Positions 6,484 to 20,614 of a DNA stretch of 64,000 nucleotides are shown in pieces. Under the pieces are notes generated by a model. The model saw nothing but the letters and a program-made list of their open reading frames with translations. It did no database searches and was not told the DNA's origin. Each line of letters opens with the position of its first letter. The first letter of the stretch is position 1. The stretch spans positions 1 to 64,000 of the forward strand of contig LADP01000020.1 of NCBI GenBank assembly GCA_000961575.1, read 5' to 3'. Position numbers and translations under genes: made by a program. The stretch comes from Peptococcaceae bacterium BRH_c8a (GTDB taxonomy: Bacteria > Bacillota > Desulfotomaculia > Desulfotomaculales > Desulfallaceae).

Positions 6484-7089
6484 TTACAGCAGGATAGAAT
6501 GCTGGTAGGTTAGATCGGTAAACATATCCGCATGGTGTTTGGAAACGTTTTTGCCAACACGAACCATGAGCATATTTGCCTGGTGCTCGAGGATTTCGGG
6601 ATCGTCGGTGTGACGCCTTTTGAAACCAACCGAACCAAAAACCTTTTTTAGCATGTCCCGGTATTGCCAGACGTTAAGGCCGCTGTTTTTTAAATCCCAG
6701 TGCCAGTTAAACTCGGTGGTGATAATAATATATTCTTCTAAAGCCTGGTTTTTAAAAGCTTCCGCCAGCAGCGCCTTGGCTAAACCATTTTTTTGCCAGT
6801 TTTGACTTATTTCTATGGCTCCCAATTCAAGTAGGCGCGGGTGTCTAATCCAGCGGCTAAATTCGCTGGGATAATGAAATAATACATAACCAACTATTTT
6901 TTCATCTATTTGAGCTATATAAACCAGACCCTCGGACAAATTGGCAATTTCCATTAGCGCTTCCTTTTGACGCAGGGGAGATCTGAAATTACCCAGTCCT
7001 GTGTCTATGTCCATTAACTCCAGTTTGGCCTGAGAAACCGGTCCTTCTAAATTTACTGTACCTCTGTCGGTTGTTAATTGCTTAGTCAT
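6484..7089 (-). CDS. acuA: AcuA-like GNAT acetyltransferase
   Basis: About 201 aa. The sequence resembles Bacillus AcuA over its length: NLEGPVS near the N-terminus, the central ELGAIEIS and acetyl-CoA-binding WQKNGLAKALL, then ITTEFNWHWDLK, VWQYRDMLKKVF and a C-terminal MLMVRVGKNVS. In Bacillus subtilis AcuA acetylates the active-site lysine of acetyl-CoA synthetase AcsA and switches it off. No acs, acuB or acuC gene lies beside it here, so the substrate is inference from the family. The start at 7089 is preferred over 7107 because GGTGGTGG lies just before it. Confidence 0.85.
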   Translation of the reverse strand: MTKQLTTDRGTVNLEGPVSQAKLELMDIDTGLGNFRSPLRQKEALMEIANLSEGLVYIAQIDEKIVGYVLFHYPSEFSRWIRHPRLLELGAIEISQNWQKNGLAKALLAEAFKNQALEEYIIITTEFNWHWDLKNSGLNVWQYRDMLKKVFGSVGFKRRHTDDPEILEHQANMLMVRVGKNVSKHHADMFTDLTYQHSILL

Positions 7090-7295
7090 AGCCACCACCA
7101 CTTCCATAATTTTAAAGAAGATAAACGAAATATCGGTACAAACCGTCTGGTTTAACGGTATGGTTTTTAAAAATATTCTGAATAAATATCGTTAATCCTG
7201 CCAGATTGAATTATTTTTATTTTTAATTCCCTGATTCCTGCCCAAAGAAATGGCTAAAAACAGGGAATTGTTTTCTTGTTTACAGTATTTACCGT

Positions 7296-8648
7296 TCAAT
7301 TCCAGTTGATGTCATGTTTTTGTGAGCGATATAACAGAGCGGATCTGGTTATGCCAAGCAGTTGGGCCGCTTTGGTTTGATTACCACCGCTCTTTTCCAA
7401 GGCTTTTAAAATCAATTCTTTCTCCAAGCCTTCGAGTGATATCCCGCTATCCGGAAAATCAACCACCACATCGCTTGAAGACCGCTGTGGGGCGTAAAGT
7501 TCCCTGGGCAGGTGCTCAGGTTCTATTTCATTCCCTCGGCAAATAATGGCAGAACGTTCAATTATGTTCTGCAGTTCCCGTACGTTGCCCGGCCAATGAT
7601 AATTGCATAGTAATTCCATGGCCTCGAGCGATATTTTCTCTACCTGATAAACATGGCCATATTTTTGTATAAAATGTTTGGCCAACAATGGAATATCTTC
7701 CTTGCGTTCCCTTAAGGGCGGCAGATGGATATGAATGACGTTTAAGCGGTAAAAAAGATCTTCCCGAAAAGTGCCTTTTTTAATGGCCTCACCCAGCTCC
7801 CGGTTAGTGGCGGCAATGACTCTTACATCAACGGAAAGTGTTTCAGTGCCGCCCACGCGTTCAAAAGACTTTTCCTGCAGCACCCTGAGCAATTTGGCCT
7901 GCATGTTTAGAGACATCTCAGCTATTTCATCAAGGAAAATAGTGCCTTTGTCCGCCAGTTCAAAACGGCCGAGTTTGCGTGCGGTTGCGCCGGTAAAGGC
8001 ACCACGCTCGTGACCGAAAAGCTCGCTTTCCAGGAGTTGTTCCGGCAGGGCGGCACAGTTAATCGGAATAAACGGCTTATTGTGTCGCGGGCTGTTTTGG
8101 TGTATAGCTACCGCCGCCACTTCCTTGCCGGTGCCACTTTCGCCGGTAATAAGCACACTGGCATTACTGTGTGCCACTCGCTCAATAAGAGCGATGATGT
8201 CAAGCATGATTTTGCTTTGGGCTATAATGTTGCCGTATTTACCTGTTAATTCCGAACGCAAAAAAGTAACCTCAGTTTCCAGTTGGATTACCAGCAAGTT
8301 CTGTTTGATTACCAGTTTCAGTTCTTCCAGGTCAAATGGCTTGGTGATGTAATCCGCAGCACCGATTTTCATTGCTTCAATGGCTGTTTCTATAGTCCCG
8401 TGCGCGGTTAACATAATAATCGGCAGCTTGGGATTTATCGCTTTGGCTTCTTTAAGGACCTCCAGACCGTCCATGTCGGGCAGGCGCAGGTCAAGGATAG
8501 TTAGCGATGGAGATTCTTCGCGGATTAAATTTAAACCGTCACGGCCCCGGTAAGCCACCTCTGTTTGGTAGCCTTCCTGACGCATAGCCCGATCCAGCGC
8601 CCAACACATATGCTCTTCGTCGTCAATGATCAGTATTTTAGGAACCAC
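7296..8648 (-). CDS. NtrC-family sigma-54-dependent response regulator
   Basis: About 450 aa in three domains. The receiver domain has an acidic pocket (IIDDEEH) and phospho-acceptor Asp in TILDLRLPDMDG. The AAA+ domain has Walker A GESGTGKE, the sigma-54-contacting GAFTGA motif, Walker B GTIFLDEIAEM and an ATNRELGEA sensor region. The C-terminal Fis-type HTH is GGNQTKAAQLLGITRSALLYRSQKH. Because GAFTGA is intact it should activate sigma-54 promoters. The GTG at 8648 is chosen as start (GGGGGG six bases upstream); a GTG at 8657 and an ATG at 8672 are alternatives. It overlaps the upstream kinase gene, so the two are co-translated and form a two-component pair. The likely target is the divergent exporter operon at 10840. 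Confidence 0.95.
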   Translation of the reverse strand: MVPKILIIDDEEHMCWALDRAMRQEGYQTEVAYRGRDGLNLIREESPSLTILDLRLPDMDGLEVLKEAKAINPKLPIIMLTAHGTIETAIEAMKIGAADYITKPFDLEELKLVIKQNLLVIQLETEVTFLRSELTGKYGNIIAQSKIMLDIIALIERVAHSNASVLITGESGTGKEVAAVAIHQNSPRHNKPFIPINCAALPEQLLESELFGHERGAFTGATARKLGRFELADKGTIFLDEIAEMSLNMQAKLLRVLQEKSFERVGGTETLSVDVRVIAATNRELGEAIKKGTFREDLFYRLNVIHIHLPPLRERKEDIPLLAKHFIQKYGHVYQVEKISLEAMELLCNYHWPGNVRELQNIIERSAIICRGNEIEPEHLPRELYAPQRSSSDVVVDFPDSGISLEGLEKELILKALEKSGGNQTKAAQLLGITRSALLYRSQKHDINWN

Positions 8649-10206
8649 CCGTGTCACCCCCCGTTTTTGCAACTAACGGTAAATTAACGGTAAATCGTGT
8701 GCCCGATCCAATCGTGCTGTCGACATTTATATGACCGTCGTGCGTTTTAATGATTTGGTGGCTGATAGATAATCCTAGCCCCGTACCGTATTCACGGGTT
8801 GTAAAAAACGGATCAAAGATACTGGCTATTTCTGTGGGTAAGATACCCGAACCGGTATCTTCAAATACAATATTAACCCAGTCGCTGTCATGTCCCGTAC
8901 AGATGATCAACTTACCTCCCTCAGGCATGGCCTGCACGGCGTTAAGAATGATGTTCACAAAAACCTGCTTAATCCTTTCAGCATCAACCTCGGTAAGCGG
9001 CAAATCCTGATCCAACATTTTTTCCAGTTTGATATTGTGCTGACGAAGCATTGGTAAAGTAAAAACCAGAACCCTTTCTATTAATGAATTAATATTGGCA
9101 CTTTGCACCATATGTTTGCTGGGGCGACCGAAATCCAACAACTCCTGAATCACCCTGTTCTGACGTTCAATTTGTTCCTCGATAACTTTAAAATATTCGT
9201 GGCCTACAACTGCTTTTTCCAGGTCTTTCTCCATTAGTTGCACCGTGGTTTTGATTATGCCAATGGGATTGCGCAACTCGTGAGCTACTCCGGTTACCAG
9301 TCTCCCCAGAGCGGCCAGCCTTTCGGAGCGCCTTAATTCTTCCTCCAGTTTTTCCTTTTCCGCAAGCGATACCGCCATCCTGTTGATGGCTATCGCTATT
9401 TCCCCCGGTTCTCCGGCCAGTGTAGGAATCTGGTTATGAATGTCTTTTTCCATTGTGCCGAGTCCCTTTTTAATTACACTCACGCTGCTGGATAAATTGT
9501 GAATTACAAACAGCGCCCCCATTGCGCCAATAAGCACGGCAAATAAAGTAAAATAACGGGTAATAGCACGGAAATGCCGGCTCTGGGCAAATATGGGGTG
9601 AATGCGTTCGTCTGCCCAGGCCACAGCCGCTAGTTCACCGTTGACATGTACAGGCATAAGGTACTCATAAGTTTCGTCATCAAGACTGCTGGTAAGGCGC
9701 GCCAGTGGTTGACCGCTGGCTGCTACCGCAATCAGTCCGCTTTTGGCTTCCTCTTTGATGCGTTCCTCCCTGGCCTCTTGTTCCGATGGATCCAGTGACC
9801 GGTATTGGTGCAGGAAACCCTGCACATAAATTTGACCGGTTTCAGGAATGTATAAACCGAATCTTACACCCAGGTTGCTCAGCACCAGCGGTTTGGTAGC
9901 CTCATTAAAAGCCTCTCGCAGGTATGACGCTTTGCTTATGGAGTTTAAAGAGTCATACTGTAAATTATTTTGTTTCATATAATAGTCGATGTTTTTTTGA
10001 ATATCCGGTATGACAACGGTTTCAATAACCGATCCCAGTTTATCCTCCCTTTCCTTTAACATGGCTTCGTCACTCCGGCTGGCAAAAAAGATATCGTATA
10101 GTATTACCAACACGGGTATAAGTAGGAGGGTGGCTATAACAATAAGAAACTGGAACCTTAAACTTTTGCCATCAAAAAAAGTAAAAATGGTTTTGGTTTT
10201 TTCCAT
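8638..10206 (-). CDS. Membrane sensor histidine kinase
   Basis: 522 aa. TM1 lies at about residues 18-38, followed by an extracytoplasmic sensor region to ~212, TM2 at ~213-236, a HAMP-like linker, a HisKA domain with phospho-acceptor His309 (GVAHELRNPIGII), and HATPase_c with N box VNIILNAVQAM, G1 DTGSGI and G2 GTGLGLSI. The extracytoplasmic domain is of single-Cache size and its ligand is unknown. The 3' end overlaps the NtrC-type regulator gene, its presumed partner. The ATG is preceded by AAAGG motifs. The position opposite a TauE/SafE exporter suggests sensing of a transported sulfur or organic anion, but this is inference. Confidence 0.92.
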   Translation of the reverse strand: MEKTKTIFTFFDGKSLRFQFLIVIATLLLIPVLVILYDIFFASRSDEAMLKEREDKLGSVIETVVIPDIQKNIDYYMKQNNLQYDSLNSISKASYLREAFNEATKPLVLSNLGVRFGLYIPETGQIYVQGFLHQYRSLDPSEQEAREERIKEEAKSGLIAVAASGQPLARLTSSLDDETYEYLMPVHVNGELAAVAWADERIHPIFAQSRHFRAITRYFTLFAVLIGAMGALFVIHNLSSSVSVIKKGLGTMEKDIHNQIPTLAGEPGEIAIAINRMAVSLAEKEKLEEELRRSERLAALGRLVTGVAHELRNPIGIIKTTVQLMEKDLEKAVVGHEYFKVIEEQIERQNRVIQELLDFGRPSKHMVQSANINSLIERVLVFTLPMLRQHNIKLEKMLDQDLPLTEVDAERIKQVFVNIILNAVQAMPEGGKLIICTGHDSDWVNIVFEDTGSGILPTEIASIFDPFFTTREYGTGLGLSISHQIIKTHDGHINVDSTIGSGTRFTVNLPLVAKTGGDTGGS

Positions 10207-10339
10207 CCTTTTTACCTTTCCAGGCCGGCTAACCCGACCGGTACTGGTTATCGTGCACCTTAAATAGGATAGGTTCTTTAAAAAATAAATTCACCTTTTA
10301 CAACTGATTGCAATTGATATGGGGGACATTTCACAGTGG

Positions 10340-10379
10340 CTGTATGAAAACATGCAGTCATCTGTTTGTTTTCATACAG
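10340..10379. promoter_or_regulatory. Palindromic upstream activating site, probable NtrC-type enhancer
   Basis: Perfect 12-bp inverted repeat CTGTATGAAAAC / GTTTTCATACAG spaced by 16 bp. Its end is about 135 bp upstream of the sigma-54-like promoter, the usual distance for an NtrC-type activator site. A further half-site-like TATATGAAAG lies at about 10416. The neighbouring NtrC-type regulator is the natural candidate to bind it; that assignment is inference. Confidence 0.65.
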
Positions 10380-10514
10380 TGAATATGTCGCGTAATCATT
10401 GACTTGAACATGACTTATATGAAAGGAATAAAAGATTGTCTGATATTGAACAATCAATTGAAAAACGTGTATTTAAAAAAGCCTATAAACCGCTGGACTG
10501 TGGATATCGACCAC

Positions 10515-10530
10515 TGGCACGATTATTGTT
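10515..10530 (+). promoter_or_regulatory. Sigma-54-type -24/-12 promoter element
   Basis: TGGCACGATTATTGTT matches the -24/-12 consensus TGGCACG-N4-TTGCW at every defined position except the -12 C, which is T. A C precedes it, as in the extended consensus. It faces the TauE/SafE gene, leaving a leader of about 300 nt. Confidence 0.6.
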
Positions 10531-10839
10531 AGGGTTAATTAGTACATAAGATTTTTTTCACATACCAAATTCGTAGTATTTCAAACAAATTCATTATATC
10601 ACATTCTCGATCTTCAATAAAGAAAATCGTAAAGGAGGGGTGCCGGAAAACAAAGTGACCAGTCTTAGTTTAAACGAGATAGACATTTGTTAAGGCGCCG
10701 GGTATGTAGTAGGGTGTATAAACTGCCCGGTGACAACATGCAAAGCGTTTGGTAACCAGCTTTTAGTAAAAATTAAATCTCAGAAAGTTAGTGCGGGATA
10801 ATGATGAAACAATTTAATTCGAGATAGCGGGGGATGCTT

Positions 10840-11775
10840 ATGCTGGATGGACTGATTTTAAAAGCAACTATGTTGGTGGAAATGGCTAACAGCTCGCAGG
10901 CTGCTGTTGCAGTAACGGAAGCAACCGGAACGGGTTTACCCTGGTGGGCGTGGCCTGCGATGCTACTGGTGACATGTTTTGTGCTTGGTATCGTGGCGGT
11001 AATGGCAGGTGTGGGGGGCGGCGTATTGTTTGTGCCGATTGTGGGAAGTTTTTATCCCTTTCACCTGGATTTTGTCCGGGGCGCAGGCTTGATTGTAGCC
11101 CTGGCCGGAGCTCTGGCTGCCGGGCCGGGCTTGTTAAAAGCCAACCTGGCAAACCTTCGCCTGGCACTGCCGGTGGCCCTAATAGCGTCAACCTTCAGTA
11201 TCGTCGGTGCCATTGTAGGTCTGGCTCTTCCTACCGACATACTGCAGATAGCACTGGGAGTTACCATTACGCTAATTGCCATACTGTTTATATTCTCCAA
11301 AAACAGTGAGTTTCCCAAAGTAGGCGAACCAGACAGTGTAACCAAGGCACTAAAAATTGGCGGTTCCTATTACGAGCCGTCTGCGGGGAAAGCCGTTGAT
11401 TGGACAGTTTGGCGTACTCCCCAGGGTTTCTTTCTCTTCATCGCCATCGGCATGGTGGCGGGGATGTTCGGACTAGGGGCTGGTTGGGCTAATGTGCCGG
11501 TACTTAACCTGCTGATGGGCGCACCGCTTAAGATAGCAGTTGGTTCCAGTAAGTTCCTGCTCTCTATAACTGATACATCGGCGGCCTGGGTATACATGAA
11601 CCAGGGTGCGGTGCTGCCAATAATTGCGGTGCCTTCGGTGGTTGGGATTATGATTGGTTCCCTGGTAGGGGTTAAGTTGTTGGCCGGGGCCAAACCAGCA
11701 TTTGTTCGGAAACTCGTAATTGGCATGTTGTTGTTTGCTGGAATTAGGTCCCTGCTCAAGGGACTCGGATATTAA
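10840..11775 (+). CDS. TauE/SafE (TSUP) family membrane exporter
   Basis: About 311 aa and strongly hydrophobic, with some eight predicted membrane segments in two halves, each with a glycine-rich signature (VMAGVGGGVLFVPIV; MFGLGAGWANVPVLNLLMG). The family exports sulfite, sulfoacetate and other sulfur-containing or organic anions. A hydrophilic loop of about 45 residues separates the halves. The start at 10840 is preferred over 10834 because of spacing to GGGGG. It is the first gene of a probable two-gene operon with 11810-12295, behind a sigma-54-like promoter opposite a kinase/NtrC pair. The substrate is not provable from sequence; sulfite or sulfate fits the organism. Confidence 0.85.
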   Translation: MLDGLILKATMLVEMANSSQAAVAVTEATGTGLPWWAWPAMLLVTCFVLGIVAVMAGVGGGVLFVPIVGSFYPFHLDFVRGAGLIVALAGALAAGPGLLKANLANLRLALPVALIASTFSIVGAIVGLALPTDILQIALGVTITLIAILFIFSKNSEFPKVGEPDSVTKALKIGGSYYEPSAGKAVDWTVWRTPQGFFLFIAIGMVAGMFGLGAGWANVPVLNLLMGAPLKIAVGSSKFLLSITDTSAAWVYMNQGAVLPIIAVPSVVGIMIGSLVGVKLLAGAKPAFVRKLVIGMLLFAGIRSLLKGLGY

Positions 11776-11809
11776 GCCCTTTCAAGGGTTTCGGATGGGG
11801 GTAAAAAAT

Positions 11810-12295
11810 ATGAGTGGTCAGGCAAGAGCTGAAAAACAAACATCCGCCAAGGCCGCACCAAGCAAGCAGACCAAGGCGGTACCCAAGGTAGATGTACCAC
11901 CGGAGCAATTAGCTTACGCTAACCTGTTGCTGTATTGCTCCTGGGCCGGAATCGGCATGCTGGCAGTAACGTTTCTTATCTATATGAGTGGTTTTTTCAG
12001 CCCGTTCATTCCCGCCAGCGAAATGCCCATGTATTGGGGAATGAGCGCACATGAGTTTCTGGTGGAAACCGGTGCTCCAATTGGCTGGGGTTGGCTTGGT
12101 ATGCTGGGCTACGGTGATTTTGTAAACCTGCTCGGTATCGCTTTCCTGGCCCTGCTGACCATTGTTGGCTACCTGGTATTGCTGCTACCGGCTTACTTGC
12201 GCAAGAAAGATATAGCCTACGCAAGCATCGTGGTGGTAGAAATTCTGGTTTTAACTCTGGCGGCATCGGGTGTCTTGGCCGTAGGTGCTCATTAA
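11810..12295 (+). CDS. Small integral membrane protein paired with TSUP exporter
   Basis: 161 aa. A charged, Ala/Lys-rich N-terminus of ~40 residues is followed by about three membrane segments (GIGMLAVTFLIYMSGFF; FVNLLGIAFLALLTIVGYLV; ASIVVVEILVLTLAASGVLA), with a loop between the first two (MPMYWGMSAHEF...GAPIGWGWLGMLGYG). The start at 11810 follows GGGGG nine bases upstream and lies 35 bp after the exporter stop, so the genes are probably co-transcribed. The family is not recognised. Its place suggests an accessory subunit of the exporter, and a second TSUP gene in this window (63455-64000) also has a membrane-protein partner. Confidence 0.7.
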   Translation: MSGQARAEKQTSAKAAPSKQTKAVPKVDVPPEQLAYANLLLYCSWAGIGMLAVTFLIYMSGFFSPFIPASEMPMYWGMSAHEFLVETGAPIGWGWLGMLGYGDFVNLLGIAFLALLTIVGYLVLLLPAYLRKKDIAYASIVVVEILVLTLAASGVLAVGAH

Positions 12296-12362: not shown

Positions 12363-13013
12363 ATGAGTGATTTTGTGCAGCAATACGCAGTTTATAAGGA
12401 TGAATTCCTCAAGGAGTTAAAAAGCGGTAACGTTGAGGTTAATTTCAAGGATGGCGCAGATAGTAAAAAAGTGGTGCTTGAACTTTTTGAGCAATGGCTT
12501 AAAAAAACAACTACCAAAAAGGAACCTAAAGCTGTTGAAAACGATTCTTTTAATTCATTCTTGGATGAGGTGCTGCACAGAGCCAAGATAATTCTCCAGG
12601 AACGGGGCATTAGAATCTCCTATCTGTCATTAAGTCAACAAATAGGTATTGCTGAATCCTGGAAGTGCATTAAGGTTTTTGGCAGTAACAATATATTTTA
12701 CCGTATCGGCAAAACAAAACCTCGTAAAGGCCCCAATAAAGGTAGGGAATACCTGGTAGTAGACCTGGTTATGGACGGCAATAAAAAGCAGGTATTCGTA
12801 CCGCTACTTGAAAAAAAGGACAATATAGAAAGCCGATTGGGTGTCTCATTGGAAAGAGAGTTGCCTAAGGTTGAAGCTACAGGTAAATATCGTTTAAAGT
12901 TAATGCTTCCATATGAAGTAGTTAGGGAAAAGAATATTCGCCTGGCTGCTAAAAAGCTAGCGGACTTTGTGGGGGCCACCAAGCCCTATCTGGATGATTT
13001 GGGTGTAATGTAA
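12363..13013 (+). CDS. Hypothetical protein, 216 aa
   Basis: No signal peptide or membrane segment. The N-terminal half is charged and helical (KDEFLKELKSGN; LELFEQWLKKTTTKKEPK). The centre has a beta-rich stretch with aromatic and basic residues (KCIKVFGSNNIFYRIGKTKPRKGPNKGREYLVVDLVMDG). The C-terminal part (NIESRLGVSLERELPKV...AAKKLADFVGATKPYLDDLGV) recalls small DUF4268-like domains seen in nuclease-associated proteins, but the resemblance is weak. A GGGGGG-containing site precedes the ATG. It is followed by its own terminator at 13089-13115. I do not recognise the family. Confidence 0.7.
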   Translation: MSDFVQQYAVYKDEFLKELKSGNVEVNFKDGADSKKVVLELFEQWLKKTTTKKEPKAVENDSFNSFLDEVLHRAKIILQERGIRISYLSLSQQIGIAESWKCIKVFGSNNIFYRIGKTKPRKGPNKGREYLVVDLVMDGNKKQVFVPLLEKKDNIESRLGVSLERELPKVEATGKYRLKLMLPYEVVREKNIRLAAKKLADFVGATKPYLDDLGVM

Positions 13014-13115: not shown

Positions 13116-13294
13116 CTAGTCGGCAGCTTTTAACCTCAGTATATAATTGATTGCTAACGAGTGTGCTATTTCAAACAGCACATGTCTGTTATTAGACAAT
13201 TGTACGCCGCATGTTTAGGTCATATCTAATTATGATATAACTAAAATTAAAATAGAGTAGCCTAAAAGCGCCAATGTAGTGCATTTATACTTAT

Positions 13295-13321: not shown

Positions 13322-13380
13322 TGCTGGCACAGAAAATGCAAAAGACTATAGTAAATTCACTTTCCAGGAGGGATGCTCCA

Positions 13381-13911
13381 GTGTCGGAACAGCCGGAAAA
13401 AAGGGTCGCCGATGTTATGATTCCTGTGCGTAATTACAAAACAATTTCACATAACTGCACCGTGGAAGATGCTGTTAGGTTGTTGCATAAATCATTTTAC
13501 CAACGCGGTAAAGGCGGTTATACGCACCGTTCTGTGATTGTTTGCGATGACTACGGGAACCCGTTGGGTATGGTATCTTTTCGCTCGGTATTACAGGCTC
13601 TGGAACCGTTTTTTGCCAGAACGCAAAGCTTTTCGGTGCCGATATTCTGGGAGGGACTTTTTTCTGAAAGATGCCGGGCTGAAAATAAAAAAAACATTAA
13701 AGAAATAATGCATCCGTTTAACTTTATAGCCCTTGACGTAAACGATACCTTAATTAAAGCTGTGCACGCTATGATCAAACATAAACTGGGTACTTTGCCG
13801 GTGACCAAAAATAACCATCTTGTTGGGATGGTTCGAGATAACGAAATTTTCGAGGAAGTACACAACGTGATGGTTGATCAAGAATATCTTGAAGATGCTA
13901 TCACCGTATAA
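13381..13911 (+). CDS. CBS-pair protein with SVPIFW...GLF..RC signature
   Basis: 176 aa. Two CBS motifs are visible: RVADVMIPVRNYKTISHNCTVEDAVRLL to SVIVCDDYGNPLGMVSF, and IKEIMHPFNFIALDVNDTLIKAVHAM to LGTLPVTKNNHLVGMV. Tandem CBS domains usually bind AMP, ADP, ATP or S-adenosyl ligands and act as energy sensors. Between them lies SVPIFWEGLFSERC, almost the same as SVPIFWAGLFTDRC in the second CBS protein at 54707-55267; ordinary CBS pairs lack this. The GTG at 13381 follows AGGAGGG at 13367-13373, while an ATG 45 bp upstream has no such site. No enzyme domain is attached. Confidence 0.85.
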   Translation: MSEQPEKRVADVMIPVRNYKTISHNCTVEDAVRLLHKSFYQRGKGGYTHRSVIVCDDYGNPLGMVSFRSVLQALEPFFARTQSFSVPIFWEGLFSERCRAENKKNIKEIMHPFNFIALDVNDTLIKAVHAMIKHKLGTLPVTKNNHLVGMVRDNEIFEEVHNVMVDQEYLEDAITV

Positions 13912-20554: not shown

Positions 20555-20614
20555 GGGGTCAGGCCTTGCAAAATTGCAAATTTTTAAAATTGCAATTTTG
20601 CAAGGCCTGACCCC
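20555..20614. repeat. Perfect 25-bp inverted repeat, REP/MITE-like
   Basis: Arms 20555-20579 and 20590-20614 are perfect inverted copies beginning GGGGTCAGGCCTTGC, separated by the 10-bp spacer ATTTTTAAAA; each arm also contains a smaller palindrome TTGCAAAATTGCAA. It lies 16 bp upstream of the glcD-like start codon. It looks like a mobile palindromic element, such as those spread by REP-associated transposases, rather than a terminator, because no U-tract follows. Confidence 0.85.

Follow-up and report, generated by a model that had tools for sequence, protein, structure and literature searches.

The stretch of DNA analysed here, hereafter the window, comprises positions 1 to 64,000 of the forward strand of contig LADP01000020.1 from Peptococcaceae bacterium BRH_c8a (GCA_000961575.1), a spore-forming sulfate-reducing bacterium whose genome contains dsrA and, above cut-off, rpoN. 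In the window a kinase/NtrC unit and a transporter operon diverge from a gap of about 630 bases, located between the start of the kinase gene (10206) and a gene for a TSUP permease. The genes of both units are:

6484 to 7107, minus strand: GNAT acetyltransferase, the conserved third gene of the kinase/NtrC transcription unit
7296 to 8672, minus strand: NtrC-type response regulator (receiver, AAA+ with GAFTGA, HTH_8)
8638 to 10206, minus strand: sensor histidine kinase with an outer domain at about residues 43-210, Cache/PAS-like in a predicted model
10840 to 11775, plus strand: TSUP (TauE/SafE) permease, with ATG 10840 favoured over ATG 10834
11795 to 12295, plus strand: SMP, the small membrane partner, weakly DUF1634-like
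12363 to 13013, plus strand: P5, a 216-aa protein of unknown family

In its receiver, its AAA+ domain with GAFTGA and its Fis-type HTH the regulator has the domains of an NtrC-type sigma-54 activator; the GAFTGA motif had been noticed in an earlier reading made from the sequence alone. The best-scoring NCBIfam models for kinase and regulator are of the AtoSC and ZraSR kind. The window pair has its kind of domains in common with these systems of enteric bacteria, but scores well under the equivalog cut-offs (AtoC 522.9 against 714, AtoS 394 against 646), and hence falls outside the AtoSC equivalogs. A Pfam search of the kinase outer domain gave no Cache match. The predicted model of this domain (mean pLDDT 88) has a Cache/PAS-like fold, resembling the WalK sensor (Z 13.3 over 137 residues) and many ligand-binding domains, including those of CitA and KinD (Z 10-11); the structural matches of the predicted sensor name no ligand.

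The permease belongs to the TauE/SafE family (122.2 bits with PF01925, cut-off 32.6), and a sequence search found no related solved structure. Its start was placed at ATG 10840 because the starts of the orthologues align there. The operon had been described as a TauE/SafE gene with a membrane partner; both are present, but the third gene, P5, had been missed. SMP members do not exceed the DUF1634 (PF07843) gathering score: 14 of 28 match at E up to 1, the best at 1.3e-4, and the SMP of the window gives no DUF1634 match. For P5, no Pfam family scored above chance and no convincing fold was found (best E 0.03). P5 genes also stand beside the kinase/NtrC pair at L093, L094, L095 and L097, where TSUP-SMP is not a neighbour.

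Conservation was followed through SMP, which was found in 39 of the 113 genomes of the order. Around it 39 further stretches were fetched, two of them from one genome (G006). Most have the arrangement GNAT-NtrC-kinase facing TSUP-SMP-P5, and by manual count an orthologous NtrC (at least 62% identity) adjoins TSUP-SMP in 30 of the 39. The set used for the counts given below consists of 32 loci, that is, the window and the 31 fetched loci in which a −24/−12 candidate was picked; it includes L043, L051 and L061, where the NtrC neighbour is absent within the stretch fetched. Left out were L055, L066 and L068 to L073. L055 was later found to hold both the −24/−12 element and activator sites, while L066, L068, L069 and L070 have the NtrC neighbour and sites, with no −24/−12 found (the slice of L069 is 3646 nt long, and its TSUP gene is cut by the contig end). 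L043 (G006:C27) is a second TSUP-SMP copy, with promoter and sites and without a kinase/NtrC pair in the fetched stretch.

The divergent gap contains the following elements:

10340 to 10357, plus strand: activator site 1, CTGTATG-AAAA-CATGCAG, left half of a 40-bp palindrome
10362 to 10379, plus strand: activator site 2, CTGTTTG-TTTT-CATACAG, forming the right half of the palindrome at a spacing of 22 bp from site 1
10436 to 10453, plus strand: activator site 3, TTGTCTGATATTGAACAA, 79 nt upstream of the −24 element and present in all 11 loci of the family alignment
10515 to 10530, plus strand: sigma-54 −24/−12 element TGGCACGATTATTGTT, with a putative start site near 10541
10551 to 10563, plus strand: conserved ATTTTTTTCACAT, from the alignment
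10593 to 10601, minus strand: extended −10 TGATATAAT, the probable sigma-A promoter of kinase/NtrC, facing the sigma-54 promoter

The TGGCAC-N5-TTGTT element noticed earlier at 10515-10530 is indeed present on the plus strand and recurs in the orthologous loci. Scored against the sigma-54 consensus, TGGCACGATTATTGTT agrees at 11 of 12 scored positions, and it is the sole match at 11 or more on either strand of the 64-kb window. The mismatch is the C of the −12 element, where the window departs from TTGCW: it keeps GG and GT at the correct spacing, while the orthologues mostly have GC at −12. Among the orthologous loci the lack of this C is common to the congener L035 only, most of the others reading TGCA or TGCT. 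A −24/−12 element with at least 10 matches lies within 500 nt in 28 of the 32 loci, compared with 0.67 in shuffles, a count that is partly selected because the loci had been chosen with a −24/−12 candidate. In families f2 and f21, TSUP-SMP occurs without an orthologous NtrC as neighbour. There, none of the six f2 loci has the −24/−12 element, activator sites being likewise absent, and in the two f21 loci no site and a single weak −24/−12 match were found. In family f9, where P5 is the first gene of the operon, the element stands before P5; the promoter therefore tracks the start of the operon and not TSUP. A scan gave no consensus sigma-70 promoter for the operon, the one weak site being on the opposite strand, and comparison of the gap with Rfam returned no family, with one chance miRNA match far under gathering. 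Just 3′ of the putative start, ATTTTTTTCACAT is kept in nearly all f1 loci and has a similar form in f9.

The sequence-only reading took the palindrome at 10340-10379 as the enhancer. Its outer arms of 12 bp are exact; nevertheless, it is not one site but two tandem 18-bp sites of a three-site enhancer. Both 18-bp halves are conserved in the relatives, whereas the perfect 12-16-12 form is found in only 2 of the 32 loci, and a single 40-bp palindromic operator was rejected on this basis. The window has 40 nested inverted repeats, at several places, whose arms measure 12 bp and whose loops reach at most 30; the palindrome is thus not rare in itself and is significant because it is conserved. Alignments and site scoring define the conserved unit as an 18-bp palindrome, approximately YTGTCTG-WWWW-CAGACAR. 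When the scoring was trained on five families and applied to the sixth, each in turn, the 32 loci gave 94 sites, against 1.34 ± 1.07 in 50 dinucleotide shuffles. Three or more sites occur in 25 of the 32 loci, and a pair spaced 20-23 bp apart, about two helical turns, likewise in 25. The third site of the window (10436-10453) had escaped the earlier reading, as had one before a CBS gene described below. A pattern scan of the window's own genome, allowing one mismatch, found 37 sites compared with 25 for the reversed control, and pattern matching alone therefore defines no wider regulon.

We infer that the NtrC-type regulator binds these 18-bp sites. Their conservation across families gives strong support to the linkage suggested earlier of the kinase/NtrC pair with an enhancer, a sigma-54 promoter and the divergent operon. 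Between the distal pair and the proximal site, TTCACAA or TTCACAT recurs in several families (L036, L039, L045, L053 and L056); TTGT precedes it by 10 nt in many loci, and the element may be a further activator site, weaker than the others and degenerate in the genus of the window. Elsewhere in the window, positions 20558-20611 form a long perfect hairpin with nested 12-bp arms and loops from 30 down to 10.

A further feature of the gap that had been overlooked is the promoter facing the sigma-54 element. On the kinase strand, 28 of the 32 loci have TGNTATAAT at most 250 nt downstream of the −12 element, compared with 0.4 in shuffles; on the opposite strand none of the 32 has this pattern. Judging from this pattern, the kinase and NtrC genes are probably transcribed from a sigma-A extended −10. 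Their putative leader, of about 380 nt, would run back through the sigma-54 promoter and the enhancer. Transcription of the operon would cross the facing promoter and might in turn damp the kinase.

Downstream of P5 lies a putative second target, whose −24/−12 element and activator site had also been missed:

13182 to 13199, plus strand: fourth activator site ATGTCTGTTATTAGACAA, 143 nt upstream of the second −24/−12 element
13325 to 13340, plus strand: second −24/−12 element TGGCACAGAAAATGCA, before the CBS gene
13381 to 13911, plus strand: CBS-domain protein, with GTG 13381 favoured over the ATG 13336 of the open reading frame

GTG 13381 is the likely start, because ATG 13336 sits within the −12 element. 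A −24/−12 element with at least one site upstream also precedes the CBS orthologues of L035, L036 and L037 and the diverged CBS gene of L052, L058 and L063. The combination was not found before the CBS gene in L038, L040 and L041; in L039 the sites lie on the wrong side of a weaker −24/−12 element, and L047 has a weak element and no site.

Of the 113 genomes of the order, 52 have the kinase sensor domain; 22 of the 52 have no SMP, and at some loci the pair faces other operons. In eight loci of family f8 the kinase/NtrC pair faces genes for a CBS-domain protein, a small protein, a WCX-domain regulator and SulP. At L094 and L097 it faces a TSUP gene with Alph_Pro_TM, and at L093 and L095 it faces P5. 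A matrix built from TSUP-SMP loci only identified 33 sites of at least 14 bits in the 12 intergenic regions of such other operons that have a clear neighbouring gene, while shuffles gave 0.07. The −24/−12 element is present in 11 of these 12 regions and the facing extended −10 in all 12. Outside this count stand L096, L101, L102, L106, L124 and the loci of second-copy kinases. L096, L101 and L102 have no activator sites at the thresholds used, and the DASS transporters of L096 and L102 are therefore linked by neighbourhood only. In the tree, the SulP-linked kinases fall within one clade together with the TSUP-SMP-linked kinases (48 rows, 99/98), the branch order inside the clade being partly supported only. 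Between promoter and CBS gene, the f8 loci L098, L099 and L108 to L113 have an additional strong activator site, 147-185 nt downstream of the −24 element.

In the 22 genomes without SMP, a TSUP, SulP or DASS gene lies within 6 kb of the best kinase locus in 16 by manual count. The misses are G020, G033, G034, G044, G066 and G110, of which G020, G044 and G066 have the locus on short contigs and G110 has a weak DASS match (24%) that was not counted. The transporter queries came from L093, L094, L096, L098, L099 and L102, which are part of the loci tested; after removal of the positives that had served as their source (G054, G056, G067, G069 and G070), 11 of 17 remain. As a control, the 20 other sigma-54 activators with the highest scores in three genomes were taken; 2 have such transporters within 6 kb, and both positives adjoin kinases 39-43% identical to that of the window. 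Mutual exclusion of SulP and TSUP-SMP was considered and rejected: a strong SulP is present in 11 of the 39 SMP genomes, including that of the window (Fisher p 0.34).

SMP is associated with dissimilatory sulfate reduction. A dsrA above cut-off is present in 37 of the 39 SMP genomes and in 38 of the other 74 genomes of the order (Fisher 9e-7, with kinship ignored), an association that is partly phylogeny; the two SMP genomes without dsrA are 72 and 88% complete. A sample of 398 genomes of the phylum gave 11 with an SMP match; the two strong ones outside the order also have dsrA. The two weakest, G173 and G301, with E near 1e-3 and no dsrA, were treated as chance matches. The genome of Ammonifex degensii holds a TSUP-SMP locus near 172 kb, and the published table of transporters lists only TSUP candidates for sulfate transport in this organism (PMC5840216).

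Taking into account the conservation of the sites, of the −24/−12 element, of the facing −10 and of the gene content, as well as the exchange of transporters, all of them read from the compared sequences, we propose that the locus is a two-component sigma-54 switch for the uptake of sulfate or a closely related oxyanion in Desulfotomaculum-type sulfate reducers, a proposal that we hold to be rather probable. In the model, the Cache/PAS-like outer domain of the kinase would sense external sulfate or sulfur status, and the kinase would phosphorylate the NtrC-type regulator. The regulator would occupy three 18-bp sites, of which two are spaced by two helical turns and the third is proximal, and activate sigma-54 RNA polymerase at 10515-10530 for transcription of TSUP, the DUF1634-like partner and P5, while the further site and −24/−12 element would switch on the CBS-domain protein. 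Kinase and regulator would be read from the sigma-A extended −10, which lies a short way into the leader of the operon and opposes the sigma-54 promoter; strong transcription of the operon, running over it, would damp the kinase. In this scheme we infer the signal, the substrate, the direction of transport and the feedback.

SulP is a known type of sulfate importer, and its appearance in place of TSUP under this kinase and these DNA sites is an argument for uptake of sulfate or a related oxyanion. Sulfate uptake is accordingly the role that we favour, with some confidence. A wider claim is that Gram-positive sulfate reducers place their dissimilatory sulfate importer, be it TSUP-SMP, TSUP/Alph_Pro_TM or SulP, under one sigma-54 two-component switch, complete with the CBS arm and the facing-promoter brake; this claim is tentative, and we would not yet lean towards it.

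The direction of transport could be the opposite. With the same switch, the operon might export sulfite or another toxic sulfur anion, the kinase sensing sulfite or stress outside the membrane and TSUP acting as a relief valve. The TauE family of Pfam is named for sulfite exporters, and sulfite is an intermediate of dissimilatory sulfate reduction, whose gene dsrA is tracked by SMP. The same kinase/NtrC pair and sites, however, face the f8 operon with SulP, a family of the importer type, and we regard export as unlikely. The exporter label of the earlier reading is thus correct as to the Pfam family, while export itself is unsupported and the SulP exchange argues for uptake. The substrate could also be another anion common to these transporters, such as a sulfonate, thiosulfate, molybdate or a dicarboxylate. 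Both TSUP and SulP are broad: bicarbonate and other anions are further substrates of SulP, and sulfite or sulfonates may be carried by TSUP. In structure, moreover, the sensor resembles CitA and KinD, which bind organic acids. Against such a substrate stand the dsrA link and the lack of any other listed candidate for sulfate transport in the A. degensii table (PMC5840216), which make it rather improbable. A sulfur or organic anion had been suggested earlier as the signal; a sulfur anion is compatible with our data, and an organic one is conceivable.

Other objections concern the DNA elements themselves. The palindrome scores partly as a terminator-like hairpin, the window has many inverted repeats with arms of 12 bp and the −12 element lacks the consensus C, so that palindrome and −24/−12-like string might be due to chance or to a hairpin or terminator, with the operon read from an ordinary promoter. 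The excess of sites (94 against 1.34) and of promoters (28 of 32 against 0.67), and the fact that f2 loci without the regulator as neighbour have neither element and f21 loci no site and one weak −24/−12 match, make this scarcely tenable; as far as sequence comparison goes, conservation has already refuted it, unless the conserved sites serve another factor. Such a factor would be a different activator encoded elsewhere, and the three genomes examined do have 28, 38 and 23 matches to the sigma-54 activator domain family. Yet sites and promoter follow the NtrC/kinase pair across the exchange of transporters, and the sites are absent from the f2 and f21 loci that lack the pair. Binding by an activator other than the neighbouring NtrC is therefore very unlikely, and the two-component switch for sulfate uptake remains our preferred reading.

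A search of open-access papers found no literature on exactly this locus; related systems have been described. The results reported for Desulfovibrio vulgaris regulators include the TSUP operon DVU0132-DVU0133, bound by the sigma-54 activators DVU0110/DVUA0057, and nine sigma-54 operons encoding TSUP or PSE transporters (PMC4641369). The likeness is that a sulfate reducer has a TSUP operon, of unassigned substrate in that account, placed under a response regulator of the sigma-54-dependent kind; the difference is that D. vulgaris belongs to another phylum and that the account of these operons describes no SulP exchange or facing kinase promoter (PMC4641369). In the sulfate-uptake clusters with DASS and SulP outlined for Desulfobacteraceae, Cache-domain kinases are present, CBS-domain proteins are found in the DASS cluster and sulfate is proposed as the effector (PMC11887813). 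The clustering of a sulfate transporter with CBS-domain proteins and a sensor kinase of Cache type recalls the window, but the regulators outlined there are of WalR type, with a TetR repressor in the SulP cluster, whereas the window has an NtrC-type regulator with sigma-54 sites and a TSUP target and so lies outside that cluster type (PMC11887813). A TSUP 'clade B' of sulfate reducers, like the window a case of TSUP in such bacteria, has been put forward as a possible primary sulfate transporter, and Adeg_0175 of A. degensii belongs to it (PMC5840216). From its position, our guess is that the TSUP-SMP locus of this organism is Adeg_0175.

Sigma-54 TSUP operons in Desulfovibrio and clusters of Cache kinase, CBS protein and sulfate transporter with WalR-type regulators in Desulfobacteraceae are thus already published; the present analysis adds the NtrC/sigma-54 variant in Desulfotomaculum-type bacteria, with its operator code, targets that can be exchanged, a CBS arm and a probable kinase promoter that faces that of the operon. 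Sulfate reducers are noted to accumulate sulfate to high levels only under sulfate limitation, which suggests molecular regulation (PMC5840216); another paper calls the transporters responsible for the affinity shift poorly known (PMC6492693). For Desulfotomaculum-type organisms, the locus offers a defined sensor, regulator, operator code and target set; since several of them have closed genomes, the question of how uptake is regulated is directly testable there. The regulator is kept while the transporter is exchanged, and the locus calls into question the exporter label on a TSUP protein. If the wider claim is true, the 'TauE/SafE exporter' and its DUF1634-like partner would be a sulfate importer, and the NtrC-type protein would be a candidate for the regulator of the high-affinity uptake seen when sulfate is limiting.

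Second-copy or related kinases, of about 39-46% identity (L119 to L123, L103, L104, L125, L126, L128 and L130), often stand beside different TSUP and CBS genes. Several of these loci have a −24/−12 element but not the 18-bp motif, and they perhaps constitute a sister regulon.
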